64,000 nt of DNA from Candidatus Limnocylindrales bacterium (GTDB lineage Bacteria; Moduliflexota; Moduliflexia; Moduliflexales; JAUQPW01): assembly GCA_035559535.1 (NCBI GenBank), contig DATMBG010000058.1:124001-188000 (forward strand), written 5' to 3'. The position numbers were made by a program, and so were the translations under genes. Shown one piece after another: positions 2,590 to 63,236 of the stretch. The notes under the pieces were generated by a model. That model had not been told where the DNA came from and ran no database searches. It saw nothing but the letters and a program-made list of their open reading frames with translations. Each line of letters begins with the position of its first letter. The stretch's first letter is position 1.

Positions 2590-4894
2590 CGAGATAAAGG
2601 TGACCCCGGAAGTCATCCAGGCCCAGGGTCTTTCTCCAGAAGAATACGAAAAGATAAAAACTCTTTTGGGAAGGGAACCGAATATAACGGAGCTCGGGAT
2701 TTTTTCGGTCATGTGGTCGGAACATTGTAGCTATAAATCCTCTCGTTTCTGGTTAAAGAGTCTTCCTACCCAGGGGAGTCGCGTGCTCATAGGTCCCGGG
2801 GAAAATGCCGGGGTTATCGATATTGGAGATGGACTGGCCGTTGTCATGAAAATCGAAAGCCATAACCACCCTTCTTTCGTGGAACCTTATCAAGGGGCCG
2901 CTACCGGGGTTGGGGGTATTTTACGGGATATTTTTACCATGGGAGCCCGACCCATTGCGGTTTTAAATTCCCTGCGGTTTGGGGATTTGAAAAATCCAAA
3001 GACCCGATACCTTCTGGGAGGAGTGGTAGCAGGAATTGCTGGCTATGGAAATCCGTTTGGCGTCCCAACGGTCGGGGGAGAGGTTTATTTTGAACCCTGC
3101 TATAACGGAAATCCTCTGGTCAACGTGATGGCCGTGGGTCTCCTGCGACAGGATCGTGTGCAAAGGGGTCGAGCTGAAGGTATTGGAAATCCGGTCATTA
3201 TTGTAGGCTCCCCTACCGGTCGTGATGGGATCCACGGGGCCGCCTTTGCCTCCAGAGAGTTGAGCGAAAAGTCCATGGAAGACCGACCTTCCGTTCAAAT
3301 CGGAGATCCTTTTACAGAAAAAAAATTGCTGGAAGCTTGTCTGGAACTTTATGAGAGCGGTTATCTGGTCGGAATCCAGGACATGGGTGCTGCCGGTTTG
3401 ACATGCTCTACCTCGGAAATGGCTGCACGGGCCGGTACGGGAATGAAAATCTATCTGGATCAGGTCCCCTTACGGGAATCCGGAATGACCCCCTATGAAA
3501 TCATGCTCTCCGAGTCCCAGGAGCGCATGTTGATGGTAGTTAAAAAAGGCTATGAAAATAAAGCCCGGGAGATTTTTGAAAAGTGGGACTTAAAATTTGC
3601 CGTTATTGGAGAGGTTACCGGAGCCGAAGCACCCCATCAACAGGCCTTACTCCAGATTTATCTGAAAGGGCAGGTGGTAGCAGAAATTCCGATAAGCAGC
3701 CTGACCGATGAAGCACCCCTTTACCGAAGGCCTTTCGTGAAGCCTGATTATTTGAAAGAAACCGCCAACCTGGATCTGGAGAAGATTCCTCTACCTGCAA
3801 ACCCTGAAGAAGTCTTCCTGACTCTCCTGGGTTCCGACAATATTCGAAGTAAGCGCCCGATCTATCAACAATACGATCACACCATCCTTGCCAATACGAT
3901 TCTACGCCCGGAAGAAGGAGATGCAGCCGTTCTTCGGATCCGAAAAGTTGAAACTACGAAGACGGCGGAAGGGATAGAAGAACGCGAGAACGGAAAACTG
4001 AAAAGGGAAAAGGCCATTGCTTTGACGACAGACGGTAATGGGCGGTATTGCTATCTAAATCCGAGGCGAGGTGCACAGATTGCCGTAGCAGAGGCTGCCC
4101 GTAATGTGGTCTGTGTAGGAGCCGAACCCATTGCCATCACCGACGGATTGAACTTTGGTAGCCCGGAGCAACCCGAAGTCATGTGGCAGTTTGTGGAAAC
4201 CATCGAAGGCCTCAAAACGGCCTGTACGGCTTTAGGTATTCCTATTATAGGAGGAAATGTCAGTTTCTATAACGAAACAAACGGAAAGGCCATTTATCCT
4301 ACTCCTATCATCGGAATGTTGGGACTGATTGAAGAGGTTGGTTATATTACCGGACAAAGTTTTAAAGATCCGGGGGACCTGATCGTCCTTCTCGGGGAAA
4401 ATAAAGGTGAGATCGGTGGCAGTGAGTATTTAAAGATTATCCATCAACGTGTCCTGGGGGAAGGACCTTCTCTAGATCTACAAAGAGAAAAAGCGCTTCA
4501 ACAAGCCTGTCTGAAGGCGATTCGCTCAGGTCTTATCAAGTCGGCTCACGATACCTCCCAGGGTGGATTGGCTATTTGCCTGGCAGAGTCCTGTTTGACC
4601 GGACGGGGTAAAGAAAAGAATCCTCATTTACCAGGTATCTCCATCGAGCTTACCGATCCCCTGAGATGGGACTTTTTGCTGTTTGGAGAAGACCAGGCCC
4701 GGATTGTTGTGAGTTTAAGCCCCTTGAATCTGGAAAAACTTCAAGAAATTGCTTATAGCTTTCAGGTCCCTATAACCGTATTGGGTAAGGTGACAGACAG
4801 TGGAATCTTTCAGATCAATGATTGGATTCGTTTACCTGTATCTAAACTCAGAGAAGTCTGGACCGGAAAGCGGGGATTAGCAGACAGTAAGTAG
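2579..4894 (+). CDS. purL: FGAM synthase catalytic subunit PurL (short form)
   Basis: PurL is the ATP-dependent catalytic subunit of FGAM synthase and works with PurS and PurQ. At 771 aa it is the short type without the fused glutaminase. Visible motifs include [14 protein letters not shown] near the start, [20 protein letters not shown] (the ATP/Mg region), and [18 protein letters not shown]. The second half repeats the fold with [18 protein letters not shown] and [17 protein letters not shown]. The ATG lies inside the end of the preceding unknown gene. The stop overlaps the open frame that precedes purF. Confidence 0.97.
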
Positions 4895-12304: not shown

Positions 12305-12341
12305 TTTAAGTATTCATCCACGGAAGGCTATGAAAAGGGTA

Positions 12342-12435
12342 GAAGTATGGGGGTGTGAGGGTGTGGGAGTATAGGAGAATATACTTCCATACTTCCATAC
12401 TCCCACACCCCCACACCCTCACACCCCCATACTTC
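12342..12435. repeat. Long hairpin of the GAAGTATGGGAG-type repeat (copy 1)
   Basis: The left arm reads GAAGTATGGGGGTGTGAGGG and onward. The right arm ends with its exact complement CCCTCACACCCCCATACTTC, giving over 25 paired bases. The element lies between nth and the deacetylase gene (both minus). Related copies lie at 31791-31921 and 59331-59446. Without a T-run it is not a typical terminator, but as RNA it would be a very stable stem. Confidence 0.8.
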
Positions 12436-12490
12436 AATGACTTAACGGCCCTTCAGAGTTCTTGAGAGGTAATATTTTTTACCCTTATCA

Positions 12491-30865: not shown

Positions 30866-31786
30866 TTAGATTTCCAATCTTGGATCCAGCGTATCCCGGA
30901 TCCAGTCTCCTAATAAATTAATTCCCAGTACGGTCAACATGATGGCCAGCCCTGGAAAAGTCGCCAGCCACCAGGCATTATAGAGATACTGACGCCCGTC
31001 GTTGAGCATTCCCCCCCAGGTCGGTGTAGGGGGTTGAACCCCTAACCCCAGGAAACTCAAAGCAGACTCCAGGATAATCATGCGGGCAACTTCTAAGGTA
31101 GCAATAACAATTCCCGGACTGATTACATTGGGAAGAATGTGACGAAAGAGGATTCTAAGGTTTTGGCCTCCCAAAGCATGGATTGCTTCAATGAATTCCA
31201 GCTCTCGAACCGACAATACTTCAGCTCGAATCACCCGGGCATAAACGACCCAGCCGGTAATTCCGAGGACGATGATAATATTTCTTAAACTGGGACCCAG
31301 GACTGCTACGACGGCAATAGACAGGAGGATAAAAGGAAAAGCCAATTGGATATCGGCCAGGCGCATAAAAATATCATCCAACCAACTCCCATAATAACCG
31401 GCGATCAAGCCGATGAGAATCCCGATGGTTCCTGAGATAAGAACTGCTGAAAGCCCTACAATGAGGGAAATTCGGGCGCCATAGATCAATCGACTGAGAA
31501 TGTCCCGTCCTAAATGATCCGTACCGAGAAGATGCTCTCGACTTCCTTTAGGATCCCAGACAGGGGGTTTAAGGCGGTTATTGATATCTTGAGCGATAGG
31601 ATCGTGGGGAGCCAGATAGGGGGCCAAAAGAGCTGAAGCTACCACGATGAAGAGGATAAAAAGTCCCGCCAGGGCGGCTTTACTTTTAAATAGACTTCGA
31701 GCAATCTTTCTGAATTCGATCCCTTTTTCCAATTGAGCCAGGCTTGATTCGCCGTGAGCTTTGTCTACTGCTTCGAGTGCCTCCAT
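30866..31786 (-). CDS. Peptide ABC transporter permease (DppC-type)
   Basis: 306 aa with about six membrane helices. The N-terminal FRKIARSLFKSKAALAGLFI and HLLGTDHLGRDILSRLIYGA are typical of DppC/OppC. The EAA loop is seen as EAIHALGGQNLRILFRHILPN, the ATPase contact site. The C-terminal WWLATFPGLAIMLTVLGINL and GDWIRDTLDPR also fit. It follows dppB across a long hairpin repeat and precedes the binding protein. No ATPase genes (DppD/DppF) lie in the window, so they must be supplied elsewhere. Confidence 0.93.
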   Translation of the reverse strand: MEALEAVDKAHGESSLAQLEKGIEFRKIARSLFKSKAALAGLFILFIVVASALLAPYLAPHDPIAQDINNRLKPPVWDPKGSREHLLGTDHLGRDILSRLIYGARISLIVGLSAVLISGTIGILIGLIAGYYGSWLDDIFMRLADIQLAFPFILLSIAVVAVLGPSLRNIIIVLGITGWVVYARVIRAEVLSVRELEFIEAIHALGGQNLRILFRHILPNVISPGIVIATLEVARMIILESALSFLGLGVQPPTPTWGGMLNDGRQYLYNAWWLATFPGLAIMLTVLGINLLGDWIRDTLDPRLEI

Positions 31787-31790
31787 TTAT

Positions 31791-31921
31791 AGTATGGGAG
31801 TGTGGGAGTATGAAAGTATGGAGGTATGGAGGTCTAGAGGTATGGGAGTATGGGAGAATCTACACCCATACTCCCACACTTCCACACTCCCATACACCCA
31901 TACACTTCTTTACTCCCACTC
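31791..31921. repeat. Long hairpin of the GAAGTATGGGAG-type repeat (copy 2)
   Basis: A run of GTATGGGAG/GTGTGGGAG/GTATGGAGG units is followed by complementary CCATACTCCCACACTTCC units. It fills the whole gap between the two peptide-permease genes, inside one transcript, and would form a large RNA stem. Translations of either strand give repetitive peptides such as VWEYGSMEVW and HTPTLPHSHTP, which are not real proteins. Confidence 0.8.
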
Positions 31922-31924
31922 AAC

Positions 31925-32842
31925 TTACTCATATCGAACCCGCGGATCCAGGTAAGTATACAAAATATCCACCACAAAATTAATTAGAACAAAAATACAG
32001 GCCAGGGTAAAGACGGCTGCCTGAACGACGGGAAAATCTCGATTATAGATGGCTTGAACCGTCAACCGACCCACACCGGGCCAGGCAAAAATCGTCTCGG
32101 TGATGATGGCCCCGCCCAGTAAGGTTCCCATTTCAAGTCCAATAACGGTAACAATGGGTATAGCGGCATTTTTAAGGGCATGACGGAGAATCACCGACCA
32201 GGGCGGGACCCCCTTGGCCCGGGCCGTCCGGATGTATTCCTGTCCCAAAATTTCTAACATCTCAGATCGGGTTAGGCGGGCCGTACGGGCCATGGTAAAC
32301 ATACCCAAAGTCAAGGCAGGTAAAATGAGATGATCAATTCCTCCCATACCGAAAGAGGGAAGCAATCGTAATTTTACACCGAAAATGAGGATCAACATAA
32401 TGCCCAACCAGAAAACCGGCATAGACTGCCCTAAAAGGGCTATGACCATACCCACATGATCCAGCAAAGAATTCCGTTTCACAGCAGAAAGAATCCCTAT
32501 AGGGACTGCTATGGAAACCGAGATAAGCATGGCTGCCAAGGTAAGCTGAACGGTTGCAGGCATGCGATCCCATACCAGCTGAAGCGCAGGTTGATTGTGA
32601 CGGAAGGAAAGCCCAAAATCGCCATGAAGGGCTCCTTTAAGGAAACGTCCATACTGCACAATTAAAGGATCATCAAATCCCATCTCGTGGCGGAATCTCG
32701 CTCTATCTTCAGCCGTAGCTTCCTGAGGTAGCAAAAGGGCCGTGGGATCACCGGTTAAATGCAGGATGGCAAAGGTTACAATGGAGACTCCAAGTAAAAC
32801 TAAGAGGGTCTGAAAAAATCGTCGGATTAGATGCTTCTTCAC
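31925..32842 (-). CDS. Peptide ABC transporter permease (DppB-type)
   Basis: 305 aa from GTG 32842. Typical DppB features: the N-terminal helix LIRRFFQTLLVLLGVSIVTF, DDPLIVQYGRFLKGALHGDF, MPATVQLTLAAMLIS, the EAA loop EYIRTARAKGVPPWSVILRH, and the C-terminal YTYLDPRVRY. It is the first gene of the three-gene importer operon (dppB-dppC-binding protein). Confidence 0.94.
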   Translation of the reverse strand: MKKHLIRRFFQTLLVLLGVSIVTFAILHLTGDPTALLLPQEATAEDRARFRHEMGFDDPLIVQYGRFLKGALHGDFGLSFRHNQPALQLVWDRMPATVQLTLAAMLISVSIAVPIGILSAVKRNSLLDHVGMVIALLGQSMPVFWLGIMLILIFGVKLRLLPSFGMGGIDHLILPALTLGMFTMARTARLTRSEMLEILGQEYIRTARAKGVPPWSVILRHALKNAAIPIVTVIGLEMGTLLGGAIITETIFAWPGVGRLTVQAIYNRDFPVVQAAVFTLACIFVLINFVVDILYTYLDPRVRYE

Positions 32843-33086
32843 CTGAGTTATGGGTTATGAAAAAGTGTCCTGCCGTTGTGAGGAAGTCCCTGGATGAAAC
32901 CCAGCACTTATCCCCGGCTTGTTAAGGGAATAACTTCCATGATGAAACGACAGGGGGAGCCTGTAGGGAATTGGGAATATCCCTTTACGACCAGGACTTC
33001 TCACAATGGCAACCTTTCTTCACCGATTACCTTGATTTTATACATGTATTCTCCGGCATGCAAGAAAAATAACTGGAGTTTTTTTA

Positions 33087-33115
33087 TTGACTTAGGGTTC
33101 TTCATTAAATAATAT
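33087..33115 (+). promoter_or_regulatory. Promoter of the MBL-fold hydrolase gene
   Basis: TTGACT at 33087-33092, a 17-bp spacer and TAATAT at 33110-33115, 35 bp before the ATG. The preceding 32843-33080 carries no gene that I can support. Confidence 0.65.
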
Positions 33116-33149
33116 AAAAAAAAGAGCTTCACAGGTGAGGAAATTTTCC

Positions 33150-34028
33150 ATGGAACTTAAGCAAATTAATCCCTATGTTTTTTACCTGCCGGGTCCCGCT
33201 AATATTGGCGTGGTTATTCATCGGAATAAAGCGGTTCTTATCGATACAGGGGTGGATGAAGGAGGGGCTCGAAAAGTTTTAAAAGACCTGGAAAGTAAAC
33301 ATATCCAGATCCATGCCATTATCAATACCCATGCCCACGCAGATCATTTCGGAGGTAATCACTATATTATCAGAAGAACCGGCGCCCTCGTCTATGCCCC
33401 GGATATTGAAGAAGCTTTTATCCGAAATCCTATTCTGGAACCCTTTTATCTGTACGGAGCGGCTCCCATCGATAGGTTAAAAAGCAAGTTCCTGATGGCC
33501 CAGGGAAGCAAAGTCGATTATATCGTCCAAAATAGGATGGAGATTATTGGACTGGAATTTCAGTTTATACCTATTCCAGGCCATTCCATTAATCAGATGG
33601 GAATAGGGGTTCAGGAGGTATTTTTCTGTGCCGACGCCATTTTTCCTCCTGAAATCATTGAGAAGTATAAAATTCTCTACTGCTATGATGTGAAGCAACA
33701 AAAAGAGACCCTGACCGGGATGAAAACCCTTTCCTTCAAGTACTATTTACCCATCCATGGGGAACTCAGTACCGATATTTCTGGCTCTATCGATTTGAAT
33801 TTGAAGAGTATTGAAAGGTTAGAAAATCTGATCCTGGAAGTTCTGGATGTCCCTAAAGGAACAGAGGAGCTCATCAAGGCGGTAGCAGATCGTTACCATC
33901 TGGACTTAAATTTTGAGCAATATTTTCTAACAGGAAATACCCTGAAGAGTTACCTATCTTCCCTGAAAACAGAGGGAAAAGTGGATTGTAAAGTGGAAAG
34001 GAACATCTTGAAATGGTATAAAACGTAG
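33150..34028 (+). CDS. Metallo-beta-lactamase-fold hydrolase
   Basis: 292 aa from ATG 33150, with AGGTGAGG upstream; a GTG at 33135 opens the same frame but overlaps that site. The zinc motif THAHADHFGG is intact, with further ligands in PIPGHSINQ, FCADAIF and PIHGEL. The order resembles glyoxalase II/SoxH-like hydrolases. The C-terminal ~70 residues form a helical DNA-binding-like or substrate-cover domain (EELIKAVADRYHLDL, LKSYLSSLKTEGKVDCKVE). The substrate is unknown. Confidence 0.9.
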   Translation: MELKQINPYVFYLPGPANIGVVIHRNKAVLIDTGVDEGGARKVLKDLESKHIQIHAIINTHAHADHFGGNHYIIRRTGALVYAPDIEEAFIRNPILEPFYLYGAAPIDRLKSKFLMAQGSKVDYIVQNRMEIIGLEFQFIPIPGHSINQMGIGVQEVFFCADAIFPPEIIEKYKILYCYDVKQQKETLTGMKTLSFKYYLPIHGELSTDISGSIDLNLKSIERLENLILEVLDVPKGTEELIKAVADRYHLDLNFEQYFLTGNTLKSYLSSLKTEGKVDCKVERNILKWYKT

Positions 34029-34140
34029 CACTTATTAAACGCATTAAAGAAAAGATTTAACGAACTCCGGACCAGAATAGTCTGCTTTTTAATCTCCCTC
34101 CAGGGATAGGTATTAGAGAGCTATCTGATATTTTAAAAAT

Positions 34141-34962
34141 TTATTTTCTAAACCGTTTGAGCAAATCTCTGGCACCTGTGGCCAGGATCCCCGCATCGTT
34201 TCCGATGGCGATCATTTGATATCCTTGTTGAATATAGGATTCTACTTCATCCAAACTGATGGCATAAAGACCGGCTGCAATGCCTGCTTTTTTACTGGCT
34301 TCCAGAACCCTATCAATGGCCTGAAGAACTTTGGGATGGGTGACTTGGGTGATGAGACCCATGGAAGCGGCGAGATCTTGGGGACCTATAAAGTAGCAAT
34401 CGATTCCCTCCACTTTAAAGATTTCGTCTATATTATTTACGGCCTCTATATGTTCGATTTGGATAATGACCATAATCTCGTCGTTGGCGGTTTTCACGTA
34501 GTCGTTCATTTCGAGGTAATAGTGGGACGGTCGCATTGGACCGATTCCTCGGATGCCTTGAGGAGGATATTTACACGCCTTTACGGCCAGTTCGGCACTC
34601 CGTCGGTCGTTGATCATGGGGATTAAAACACCCTGAGCCCCCATATCCAGGACCCGTTTAATAAGGACCGGATCATTCCAGGCGACTCGAACAATGGGGG
34701 TAGCATCGGATCCGTTCATAGCCTGAAGGTGATGGAGACAGGTTCTCAGATCAAGAGAACCATGCTCGGCATCAATAACCAACCAGTCGAATCCCACATA
34801 AGCCATAATTTCGGCTATCTCCGGGCATCCCATGCCGATAAACGCGCCCAATGTAGCCTCTCCGGCTTGAAGTTTCTGCTTTGTTTTATTTTTCCTAGTT
34901 TTGGGGTTTTTGGCCGGGTTAGATTCCTTAGGGGGCAACTTAGATCTTGTCCTGTTTTTCAT
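34141..34962 (-). CDS. HpcH/HpaI-family aldolase
   Basis: 273 aa. A basic N-terminal extension (about 35 residues rich in Lys/Asn/Pro) precedes the class II pyruvate aldolase barrel. Motifs: DWLVIDAEHGSLD (active-site His and metal region), PIVRVAWNDPVLIKRVLDMG, GAQGVLIPMIND, the metal-binding IIQIEHIEAV and DCYFIGPQDLAASMG. Family members cleave 4-hydroxy-2-oxo acids to pyruvate or oxaloacetate derivatives, often in aromatic or sugar-acid catabolism. AAGGATAGGAT lies upstream. It converges on the MBL gene. Confidence 0.92.
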   Translation of the reverse strand: MKNRTRSKLPPKESNPAKNPKTRKNKTKQKLQAGEATLGAFIGMGCPEIAEIMAYVGFDWLVIDAEHGSLDLRTCLHHLQAMNGSDATPIVRVAWNDPVLIKRVLDMGAQGVLIPMINDRRSAELAVKACKYPPQGIRGIGPMRPSHYYLEMNDYVKTANDEIMVIIQIEHIEAVNNIDEIFKVEGIDCYFIGPQDLAASMGLITQVTHPKVLQAIDRVLEASKKAGIAAGLYAISLDEVESYIQQGYQMIAIGNDAGILATGARDLLKRFRK

Positions 34963-35252
34963 AAGATCCTATCCTTTCTTTCGTGGGGCGATCCCATACA
35001 CGATTTTGATTTTTAAAATTTACTTGCTATTGCAGGTATTCTAAATTACAGTTTTACTGGCTAAGGTTATAGTCAATCAGGTATGTCTTTGCTGGGGTTT
35101 AGAATTTTAACAGGTTATCTCAGGAAAGGTATTTACCATCTGGTAAGTTGTCAACGGTTTTTTATAGGTTTTTAAAGTTTCTTCATCTTGAGAAATAGAT
35201 CTTTTAAGATCCCCCTTGACAATTTTTAAGAATCTTCCCAGATTAACCCTTG

Positions 35253-36743
35253 ATGCCAGAGTATATTCCTAAAAAACGAAGGATTTACTTATTAAATGGG
35301 CTTCCACCCGAAGTCGTGGCCGTAGCCTTTGCTAAAACCAGTCGATCCCCTGAATCTTTTGATGTGATCGCAAAAGAATTAACTGAAGAGAAATCCTCTC
35401 AATTCCATGAAAAATGGGTGGTAGGTTATGGTCATCAGAGCGTAGCCGAGCATGCAGTTCTCAGTATTGCCATTGAGAATGTGTCTCGATATGCGGTGGA
35501 AACCATCGAAAGTAATCGTCTGGCAGCTTATACGGAAAAATCTTCCCGCTATCAGATTTTTACTTTGAACGATTTTTATATTCCGGAGGAAATCGAGCAC
35601 TCTCCGTATAAGGATTTATATACCGAAACCTGTATTTATTTACTGGAGACCTATCAGCGGATCCAGCGCAAGCTGGAAGAATATGTAAAAAGCCGAGGTC
35701 TTGTACCCAGGAAAGAGGGAGAAAGCGATCGGGGCTATGAGGCAAGGGTTCGTGCCTTTGCTTTGGATCGATCCAGATTTTTGATGCCCATCGCCGCCCT
35801 GGCCAATGTAGGGATGACCATCAACGCCAGGAGCCTGGAACATGCCATTACGAAAATGCTTTCCAGTCCTCTCAGTGAAGTGAGGAAAATCGGGGAGACT
35901 TTAAAAGAAGAATGCCGTAAGGTGGTTCCCACTTTGCTCAAGTATGTAAGTCCGAGTCCCTATCTTATGGAAACCCAGGCAGCCCTTGGTAAGTTGGTGG
36001 AAAGTTTAGATAAAGATGGGAAGAGGGAGGTAGGAGAGTGGGAAGGTAGGGAAGTTTTATTTTCGGCCTCCTCATCTCCCTACCCTTCCCGACCCTCCTA
36101 CTCATCCGATTCTGTAACGCTTCTGGACTATGATCCCGAGGCCGAAGATAAACTGGTGATTGCTTTACTTTATAAGTTTTCCCATCTGTCCTATCAGGAG
36201 TTGCAGAGGGTGGTTAAAAAAATGACTGCAGCCGAAAAAGAGCGGGTGATTGATGAAGCTTTGCGACGGTTAAAGGATTTTGATACCCCTCTTCGAGAAT
36301 TGGAGTATATTGGCTATACCTTTGACTGTCTCATGGATTATGGGGCATATTTCGATTTAAAACGGCATCGAATGTGTACGCAAACCCCCCAGGAGCCGAC
36401 GATTGCCCATGGATTTGTTTTACCCCCCCTGGTCGAGGAGGCCGGATTAAAAGAGGATTTTCTGGAAAGTATCCGAAAGGCAGAGACCGCTTATGAACGG
36501 ATTTCTTCATTGTTTCCCCAGGAAGCCAGGTATTTAATCCTGAATGCCCATAAACGGCGAATGCTCTGGCATATGAATCTAAGGGAGGTCTACCACGTGG
36601 TTCGGCTCCGCAGTAAACCTCAAGGTCATTTTACTTACCGAAAAGTGGCTCAGGAAATTTACAAATTGGTAAGCCACGTTCACCCGATCATAGCCCGATA
36701 TTTGCAGGTTAATCTGGAGGATCTCAGTGTGCGCCCCCCTTAA
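35253..36743 (+). CDS. thyX: Double-domain ThyX-like flavin-dependent thymidylate synthase
   Basis: 496 aa, about twice the length of classical ThyX, with two related halves. Half 1 has WVVGYGHQSVAEHAVLSIAI and SNRLAAYTEKSSRY, in the place of the RHRxxSxxxxSxR motif but without RHR. Half 2 has FDLKRHRMCTQTPQ (RHR retained) and HMNLREVYHVVRLRSKPQGH. Long ThyX-like proteins of this kind occur in several phyla; thymidylate synthase activity is likely but unproven. About 28 residues around 256-284 are encoded by an in-frame hairpin repeat. ATG 35253 has no clear ribosome site; a TTGACA lies at 35216-35221. Confidence 0.85.
   Translation: MPEYIPKKRRIYLLNGLPPEVVAVAFAKTSRSPESFDVIAKELTEEKSSQFHEKWVVGYGHQSVAEHAVLSIAIENVSRYAVETIESNRLAAYTEKSSRYQIFTLNDFYIPEEIEHSPYKDLYTETCIYLLETYQRIQRKLEEYVKSRGLVPRKEGESDRGYEARVRAFALDRSRFLMPIAALANVGMTINARSLEHAITKMLSSPLSEVRKIGETLKEECRKVVPTLLKYVSPSPYLMETQAALGKLVESLDKDGKREVGEWEGREVLFSASSSPYPSRPSYSSDSVTLLDYDPEAEDKLVIALLYKFSHLSYQELQRVVKKMTAAEKERVIDEALRRLKDFDTPLRELEYIGYTFDCLMDYGAYFDLKRHRMCTQTPQEPTIAHGFVLPPLVEEAGLKEDFLESIRKAETAYERISSLFPQEARYLILNAHKRRMLWHMNLREVYHVVRLRSKPQGHFTYRKVAQEIYKLVSHVHPIIARYLQVNLEDLSVRPP
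36020..36103. repeat. In-frame hairpin repeat inside the ThyX-like gene
   Basis: The left arm runs GAAGAGGGAGGTAGGAGAGT and onward. The right arm reads CTCCCTACCCTTCCCGACCC and onward, largely its complement. The translation is a low-complexity insert (REVGEWEGRE ... SSPYPSRPSYSS) between otherwise conserved ThyX segments. The length keeps the frame. Confidence 0.8.
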
Positions 36744-36774
36744 AATATCCTAAAATATAGGGAAACAAAAATGC

Positions 36775-36803
36775 TTGACAAGTTAGAGAGTGTTTGCTAA
36801 CGT
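36775..36803 (+). promoter_or_regulatory. Promoter upstream of bactofilin
   Basis: TTGACA at 36775-36780, a 17-bp spacer and TAACGT at 36798-36803, about 90 bp before the GTG start. It probably drives bactofilin and the close-packed gcvH. Confidence 0.55.
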
Positions 36804-36893
36804 TAGGTACGACAAGAATTTATAACTCTTTTTAAATAGCGATCTTAGAAGCAGAGGTTTATCATTAAATTTTCTTAAAAAGGAGGACTAATT

Positions 36894-37478
36894 GTGGCAC
36901 TCTTTGGAAGGCCAAAATCAGAGCCTGAACCTGAGCATACAAATCCAGAAGTAACTGCTGTGAACCATAAAGAGAAGGAGTCCAGTAAAATTCCTAAACG
37001 ACCTGCTTCACCGGCCCAAATGGGACCCTCACGAAAAGAAGGGATGACGGTGATCGGAAAAAGTATTACCATTAAAGGGGAGCTTTCCGGTGAGGAAGAT
37101 ATTAAGGTAGAAGGTAGGGTCGAGGGTCGTATCATTGTAAAACGAAATGTATTGGTCGGCCAAACCGGGGTGATTGAAGCTGATATCGAAGCTGAAAATA
37201 TCAGCATCGCGGGAACGGTCATGGGAAATATTAAAGCCGGAAATAAGGTGGAAATTGTCTCTACCGGCAGGATGAACGGAGATATCAAGGCACCTCGGGT
37301 TATTGTAGCAGAAGGGGCTCACTTTAAGGGTAATGTGGACATGGATACAAGTTCCAGAACCCCGGGAACTATGGGAAATAGCAGTTTGAAAGTGAAGGAT
37401 TCGGAGATTTTATCTCAAATTACACGAGATATTCCCTCGAGTTTTGAAGAAATCCCTGAGGATGAGCTGGTAGAATAG
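36894..37478 (+). CDS. Bactofilin-family cytoskeletal protein
   Basis: 194 aa from GTG 36894 (AGGAGGAC upstream). The bactofilin domain is a right-handed beta-helix with short repeating strands: MTVIGKSITIKGELSGEEDI, then VEGRVEGRIIVKRNVLVGQTG, SIAGTVMGNIKAGNKVEIV and GRMNGDIKAPRVIVAEGAHF. N- and C-terminal tails are disordered and charged. Bactofilins polymerise without nucleotide and organise cell-shape or polar machinery. gcvH starts 60 bp downstream. Confidence 0.94.
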   Translation: MALFGRPKSEPEPEHTNPEVTAVNHKEKESSKIPKRPASPAQMGPSRKEGMTVIGKSITIKGELSGEEDIKVEGRVEGRIIVKRNVLVGQTGVIEADIEAENISIAGTVMGNIKAGNKVEIVSTGRMNGDIKAPRVIVAEGAHFKGNVDMDTSSRTPGTMGNSSLKVKDSEILSQITRDIPSSFEEIPEDELVE

Positions 37479-59330: not shown

Positions 59331-59446
59331 GTAGAAGTATGGGAGTATGGGGGTATGGGAGTAAATTTTCCCGCACTTCGACACTTCCACACTTCTTACT
59401 TCCGCACTTCCACACTCCCATACTCCCACACTTCCATACTTCTACA
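59331..59446. repeat. Long hairpin of the GAAGTATGGGAG-type repeat (copy 3)
   Basis: GTAGAAGTATGGGAGTATGG and GGGTATGGGAG form the left arm; CACTCCCATACTCCCACACT and CCATACTTCTAC form the right arm. It lies in the gap between the patatin gene and the aminotransferase gene, so it belongs to the leader of the latter or the 3' end of the former. It has the same word structure as copies at 12342-12435 and 31791-31921. Confidence 0.8.
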
Positions 59447-59507
59447 CTTCCCCCTTTGAGTAAGTAAATATTTTTTCTCTGTTCCCTCAGTCAAAGAGTC
59501 CAAACGT

Positions 59508-62108: not shown

Positions 62109-62201
62109 AGTATAGATGTCTGAGAATAGGAGGAAATAAAGGTAGGAAAGCAGAGAGGTTCTCACGCTTTATTTTCATACTTCCATGCCTTCCTGCTCTT
62201 A

Positions 62202-63236
62202 TTATATCCCGATGTACCTGGCATAAAGTCCTTTTGCGACGAGCGGGTCTTTGACCCCTTTGATAATGCTTCGGCCATCAGGAAATAGGGTCATTTCGAA
62301 TCCGTTAACTTTAAATTTGAGGATGTAAGCATTATAGCTGACCTCACCCAGAGATTGAAGTTTTTGAGCCAGACTTTCAAACTGAATCTGTACAGGGGTT
62401 TTATGGCTAATTTGTACCGCATCACGACCGCAGAGAACCGTCATATAGGAACCTTCTTTTCCTTCCAGGAATTCAAAGTTACCTTGCTTACAGGTGGGAC
62501 AGTTGGCGGCTTCCCTTGAATGAGAAATGTCGACCTTTGTAAAACTCCCCTCCCAGATATCAACCATGACGATTTCTTTCCGTAAGGCTTTCCAGTTTTG
62601 GGTTAGAATTTTTAACCCTTCCGTAACCTGAATCGAAGCAATGACATTTACAATCGGTGCAATAACTCCGGCTGTATCACACGTCGGGGTAGCTCCTGCC
62701 GGGGGAGCTGTTTCCAGCACACAACGCAGACAAGGAGTCTCATAGGGAATAATCGTCATGGAAAGACCATAACTACTTACACAAGCTCCATAAATCCAGG
62801 GAATTTTATGCTTTACACAGGCATCGTTGATCAGGTAGCGGGTTTCGAAGTTATCGGTCCCATCCATAACCAGGTCCGCACCTTCCAGGATACTTTCGAT
62901 ATTTGTGGGGTTAACGTCGGTTACCAGAGACTCGATTTGGATATGGGAGTTGATTTTCTCCAGTTTTCTTTGAGCAGCCACAGCTTTAGGAAGATTTTCT
63001 CGAACATCTTCTTCATCAAACAGAATTTGACGTTGGAGATTATTCTCTTCCACAAAATCCCGATCTACAATTTTTAGCCTTCCCACTCCGGCCCTGGCCA
63101 GGGAACTGGCTATAACCGTTCCTAAAGCACCGCAGCCGATGACGACCGCATAACTCTTCAGGAGCTTTCGCTGACCTTCTTCTCCGATTCCCGGGAAGAA
63201 GATCTGGCGAGAGTATCTTTCTAAATTTTTATCCAT
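62202..63236 (-). CDS. MoeB/ThiF-family adenylyltransferase (E1-like)
   Basis: 344 aa. RYSRQIFFPGIGEEGQRKLL, then the nucleotide loop VIGCGALGTVIASSLARAGV and the Arg/Asp catalytic segment DRDFVEENNLQRQILFDEED. A structural zinc is bound by CLRCV and CPTCKQG. It activates the C-terminal Gly of a ubiquitin-like sulfur carrier (MoaD or ThiS) by adenylation. The MoaD-like protein at 52644-52919 is a candidate partner but is 9 kb away. It ends with a domain of about 75 residues of unclear fold (YNAYILKFKVNGFEMTL). Confidence 0.93.
   Translation of the reverse strand: MDKNLERYSRQIFFPGIGEEGQRKLLKSYAVVIGCGALGTVIASSLARAGVGRLKIVDRDFVEENNLQRQILFDEEDVRENLPKAVAAQRKLEKINSHIQIESLVTDVNPTNIESILEGADLVMDGTDNFETRYLINDACVKHKIPWIYGACVSSYGLSMTIIPYETPCLRCVLETAPPAGATPTCDTAGVIAPIVNVIASIQVTEGLKILTQNWKALRKEIVMVDIWEGSFTKVDISHSREAANCPTCKQGNFEFLEGKEGSYMTVLCGRDAVQISHKTPVQIQFESLAQKLQSLGEVSYNAYILKFKVNGFEMTLFPDGRSIIKGVKDPLVAKGLYARYIGI

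Follow-up and report, generated by a model that had tools for sequence, protein, structure and literature searches.

We describe a hairpin made of octamer repeats that is read in frame inside the thyX gene of a Candidatus Limnocylindrales bacterium, in a window of 64,000 nt (contig DATMBG010000058.1). The element belongs to a genome-wide family of repeats, leaves the reading frame open, is shared with the sister species, lies in a segment predicted to be disordered and has analogues in other enzymes. We consider it highly probable that a copy of this genus-specific hairpin repeat was taken up in frame at a permissive linker of ThyX, where it would be translated as an unstructured peptide and tolerated. 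The features on which this account draws are collected in Table 1.

Table 1. Features of the thyX locus and members of the octamer-hairpin family. Positions without a prefix are those of the window.
Feature	Position	Strand	Basis or remark
Double (two-domain) FAD-dependent thymidylate synthase ThyX, 496 aa	35253..36743	+	ORF, Pfam Thy1, TIGR02170, Foldseek
In-frame octamer-hairpin element, peptide about DGKREVGEWEGREVLFSASSSPYPSRPSYSS	36016..36107	+	Inverted repeat, fold, octamer scan; pLDDT <50 at nt 36024-36107
Purine (R) arm, octamers with GT end	36016..36055	+	Octamer scan, score 38.5
Loop of ThyX element	36056..36065	+	
Pyrimidine (Y) arm	36066..36107	+	Octamer scan, score 23.4
Intergenic family member	12333..12438	.	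Octamer scan
Intergenic member between two minus-strand ABC-permease-like genes, ~7 and 5 bp away	31794..31919	.	Occupied in sister species
Intergenic member, 123 bp; 164 bp in sister species	59331..59453	.	
Weak, probably decayed family member	62112..62202	.	Octamer scan
In-frame octamer element in molybdopterin oxidoreductase	L139 602-680		
In-frame octamer element in GlgC	L159 19753-19848	minus	
Probable in-frame element in protein with FGE-sulfatase domain	L222 7793-7908	minus	Domain recognised only after element

The hairpin and the ThyX protein

The gene product is assigned to ThyX both by profile and by fold. Pfam Thy1 matched two stretches of the 496-aa protein, TIGR02170 scored 92.1 bits (cut-off 87.9), and the predicted model matched ThyX structures in Foldseek. 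In the AlphaFold model (mean pLDDT 85, pTM 0.84), pLDDT falls below 50 at residues 257-284, which are the hairpin segment; in the first fold helix 235-254 precedes it, and strand 287-292 in the second fold follows it. The open reading frame crosses the hairpin without a stop. A sequence-only reading of the window had placed a hairpin with purine and pyrimidine arms at 36020-36103, in frame between the two halves of a ThyX-like enzyme; the hairpin, its arms, the frame and the position between the folds were all borne out, and only the limits are better drawn as in Table 1.

The motif RHRxxSxNExSxRY, which we take to be the signature of ThyX, is not complete within either domain. It is divided: the N half alone has ExSxRY (alignment residues 94-99), the C half alone has RHR (370-372), and the residues of both parts are invariant or nearly so across 45 homologous sequences. 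This suggests that the complementary halves of the double ThyX form composite active sites.

Within the element, GGGAGGTAGGAGAGTGGGAA occupies 36025-36044 and the inverted-repeat arms 36036-36054 and 36085-36103 are 84% complementary, with further overlapping pairs. Among all windows of thyX, the linker has the highest inverted-repeat score (11.5; mean over the gene 7.0). As RNA the hairpin has a minimum free energy of -42.4 kcal/mol (z -1.83), equalled by 7 of 200 dinucleotide shuffles, and with DNA folding parameters 23 of 200 shuffles were as good. Folding energy is thus modest evidence, since the base make-up of the element folds well anyway, and the octamer grammar of both arms is the stronger argument.

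The octamer consensus contains no stop codon in any frame of either strand (ATG GGA GTA TGG GAG TAT GGG AGT; complement ACT CCC ATA CTC CCA TAC TCC CAT), and since the unit length of 8 and the codon length of 3 have no common factor, a single 24-nt cycle is read in all frames. On average 4.3 of 6 frames are open in single arms, and whole elements have 2.3 open frames vs. 0.95 after shuffling. Between the two species, coding elements differ in length by 0 (ThyX), 9 (oxidoreductase) and 0 nt (GlgC), and intergenic elements by 18, 20, 40, 41, and 49 bp; the frame is preserved in the coding elements, while length change between genes is irregular.

Conservation in the sister species and among homologues

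The ThyX of the sister species (JAUQPW010000033.1; 93% protein identity) has an element of equal length at the corresponding position, so that the insert is a feature of the genus and not of this genome alone. It was absent from more than 80 further double-ThyX homologues (mostly Chloroflexota, also Armatimonadetes and others), and sharing of the same peptide by unrelated phyla, which would have spoken against an inserted repeat, did not occur among them. The linker DNA measures 132 nt in this genus vs. 60 nt in the homologues L056 and L057. The two species differ at 23 of 92 sites (25%) in the ThyX element, compared with 91 of 1399 (6.5%) in the rest of the gene, and constraint on the element appears to be relaxed. 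More generally, orthologous elements are 58-75% identical vs. about 93% for their flanks, and both length and sequence turn over fast within the sites. At each of the nine distinct sites that were compared, both species have an element, with no empty orthologous site among them, and there is therefore no sign of recent movement.

A genome-wide family of octamer hairpins

The family has the form (RTGGGAGT)n-loop-(ACTCCCAY)n, and its commonest units are ATGGGAGT, GTGGGAGT, ATGGGGGT, and ATGGAAGT. When the exact ThyX arm was used as a query, it returned its own locus and two weak matches only, and the family was therefore defined via its octamer grammar. With R-[TG]-G-G-R-R-G-T as the octamer, a scan for arrays gave 56 arms in 464 kb (the window and a further 400 kb), as against none in the shuffled control. 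Paired R-loop-Y elements numbered 55 in 1.588 Mb (28% of the genome), from which we extrapolate about 194 per genome; the reversed-sequence control gave three, of another kind. Polarity is constant, with the R arm preceding the Y arm on either strand. A three-unit pattern matched 331 times in this genome (165+166) and 372 times in the sister species (212+160), but not at all in two other genomes of the same order, and only two of ~380 further genomes were positive (7 matches and 1 match). The family would thus seem to be essentially limited to this genus. An unrelated genome, G373 (C24, C26, C34; L184, L188, L191), contains a few such arrays, of which 4 are forward and 3 reverse.

Most members occupy intergenic gaps, often a few bases from both neighbours, which agrees with the earlier suggestion that the word structure of the hairpin is that of the intergenic repeats. 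In a first sample, 18 of 33 elements lay between tandem genes and 7 between convergent ones. A general role as terminator is unsupported, given that the elements lie mostly in tandem-gene gaps, one of them between adjacent permease-like genes (31794-31919). The own arms of an element match only slightly better than arms swapped among elements, and hence the elements are not plain duplicates of a single sequence; no fixed element sequence recognisable by profile was found, and the octamer grammar alone is conserved. Co-evolution of the arms received no support from this comparison or from cross-species pairing tests. Likewise, mobilisation by a RAYT is not supported, since no match to the Y1 transposase (PF01797) was found in the 96% complete assembly (5 of 14 control genomes were positive). 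Neither a target-site duplication nor a mobiliser is known for the octamer elements.

Three further arrangements were seen. A very regular array of 18 octamers of the ATGGGAGT type, whose partner arm is almost absent, lies at L143 16618-16761 and is possibly young or source-like. Between rpoA and hemC (L002 1346-1395) there is a hairpin with purine and pyrimidine arms but without the octamer period (GGGAGAACAGGAGAGGGGAG), and in hemC itself (L002 about 1495-1530) a purine/pyrimidine stretch lacks any partner arm; both are at most doubtful candidates for the family.

In-frame elements in other enzymes

Within the 28% of the genome scanned, octamer elements also occur in frame in conserved proteins unrelated to ThyX: GlgC and a molybdopterin oxidoreductase, with a third, probable case in a protein that has an FGE-sulfatase domain. 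Compared with known structures, GlgC has about 27 residues more than 5l6s at the element (residues 49-82 opposite 197-204), and oxidoreductase residues 191-242 stand against 284-289 of 2vpw, again a longer stretch. On both strands the purine arm precedes the pyrimidine arm, which is why the element peptide always begins charged/Gly-rich and continues Ser/Pro/Thr-rich. Only 4 of the 55 elements lie inside conserved genes, although a crude gene call classes ~86% of the DNA as coding; coding copies are thus strongly depleted. They are also lower-scoring than the others (median 59 vs. 114, p 0.008, n=4).

Repeats in the same linker of Anaerolineae ThyX

The corresponding linkers of Anaerolineae ThyX hold, in frame, a CCCTCACCCC...CCCTCTCCC/GGGAGAGGGG...GGGGTGAGGG palindrome, a ACCACAGAG.../...CTCTGTGGT palindrome, or tandem heptamers, that is, at least three unrelated repeat classes. 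The two palindromes recur in the genomes whose ThyX carries them, the CCCTCACCCC type with 4-65 matches and the ACCACAGAG type with 10-43; a heptamer linker recurs in 2 of 4 test genomes (39 and 19). The CCCTCACCCC type is also found in genome G394, whose ThyX linker is without it. Among 86 linkers (the query and the sister species included, the latter twice), 41 are the top inverted- or tandem-repeat window of their own gene, where about 3 would be expected per measure. Repeat types switch at least 25 times on a ThyX tree that was built by a quick method with the linker left out, with repeat labels assigned by hand and long branches flagged. Three near-identical ThyX genes of Anaerolineales (branches about 0.02) have differing linkers between alignable flanks (about 3720-3790 in each), with a palindrome in L072, no clear repeat in L073 and heptamers in L075. 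The site is thus a record of repeated uptake and loss of unrelated repeats.

Discussion

The account that we favour is that a copy of the octamer hairpin reached an already variable linker between the halves of the double ThyX, at a time before the genus diverged into its two known species. The element would be translated as an unstructured peptide, with the purine arm charged and Gly-rich and the pyrimidine arm Ser/Pro/Tyr-rich. Tolerance of the insert would follow from a linker that bears no structural load and from an octamer consensus that is stop-free in all frames, the protein is probably functional, and the peptide itself is probably neutral. The sequence-only reading had likewise proposed that a repeat inserted in frame and was tolerated; this is supported, with the qualification that the insertion event is deduced from homologues that lack the element, no empty site having been found.

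It is conceivable, though clearly less probable, that no copy was inserted and that the element instead expanded at its present site from a short purine/pyrimidine seed in the linker, by slippage and strand switching, much as other elements of this genome change in length. This alternative departs from the favoured account solely in the origin of the element, and the confidence given to the one overlaps with that given to the other. The fast change of orthologous elements relative to their flanks, the near-equal complementarity of swapped arms and the lack of empty sites among the nine compared are all consistent with growth in place. On the other hand, ~190 elements have a single octamer consensus and a single R-to-Y polarity, which points to a shared source or to a process with sequence specificity, and the two ThyX orthologues are equal in length. 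A selected RNA structure in thyX, such as an attenuator, translational pause or mRNA stabiliser, seems to us a poor candidate. The fold is kept in both species (-40.0 and -52.4 kcal/mol) and family members do occur in tandem-gene gaps; yet the purine arm of this genome pairs better with the pyrimidine arm of the sister species than with its own, leaving no arm-specific co-variation, the element diverges faster than the gene, and the hairpin is missing from all other thyX genes compared. Moreover, no Rfam family exceeded threshold in the stretch 31700-36900, where microRNA-like hairpins scored sub-threshold only. In yeast mitochondria, ribosomes hop over hairpin insertions, and by this precedent the insert might be skipped as a bypassing element, or else spliced out, and so remain untranslated. 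We regard this as scarcely credible, as the coding elements are stop-free in frame with indels that are multiples of three in both species, unlike the intergenic ones.

Palindromic elements of Rickettsia (RPE) and Wolbachia are ~100-150 bp long, present in many copies, and inserted in frame in conserved genes at solvent-exposed sites, with the same positions occupied in related species (PMC10969869, PMC3767692). The octamer hairpins resemble them in copy number (55 in 1.588 Mb, about 194), in their in-frame occurrence within unrelated conserved proteins and in positions shared with a sister species, as well as, for ThyX only, in a predicted surface-exposed location (the linker 257-284 between the folds). 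In contrast to RPE, they are variable-length arrays without a fixed sequence, mostly intergenic, and belong to another, uncultured lineage. Judged by features, the phenomenon would be comparable to RPE, but it involves a different repeat, and we do not file it as a member because a fixed element sequence is missing. As high-copy palindromes largely in intergenic gaps, the hairpins also recall REP elements and BIMEs with their RAYT, from which they differ in being octamer arrays rather than a fixed 20-40 nt palindrome and in the lack of a Y1 transposase in the assembly. Mitochondria of Nematomorpha have coding palindromes whose perfect arms encode conserved residues (PMC6649704); there, too, hairpins lie within the coding sequence of enzymes, whereas the octamer elements have imperfect arms, and the linker that these encode is predicted to be disordered. 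Bacterial intrastrand triplex motifs are interspersed repeats that are prone to unusual DNA structure and linked to instability (PMC4666352), and in this the octamer elements are similar to them. We found no description of the octamer repeat or of repeat-filled ThyX linkers in the literature, which is weak evidence given that subscription journals were mostly outside our coverage.

With respect to the recurrence of repeats in the ThyX linker, survival at a harmless spot is a simpler reading than targeting. One could go beyond mere harmless survival and propose that DNA repeats dock preferentially in this linker in different phyla and overwrite one another there time and again, their families being exchanged by a directed process (repeat recombination or targeting), and with unit lengths of 7 and 8 supplying ready-made stop-free coding sequence; we hold this to be unlikely.

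Rickettsia and Wolbachia are the main known sources of palindromic repeats that lie in frame within protein genes, and the present case adds another lineage and a different kind of repeat. Within one enzyme family, unrelated repeats fill the same linker repeatedly, sometimes between near-identical genes. ThyX linkers thus offer a natural record of the rate at which repeats enter proteins, of the unit lengths that are tolerated, and of targeting as opposed to survival, and thus of how enzymes absorb junk DNA.
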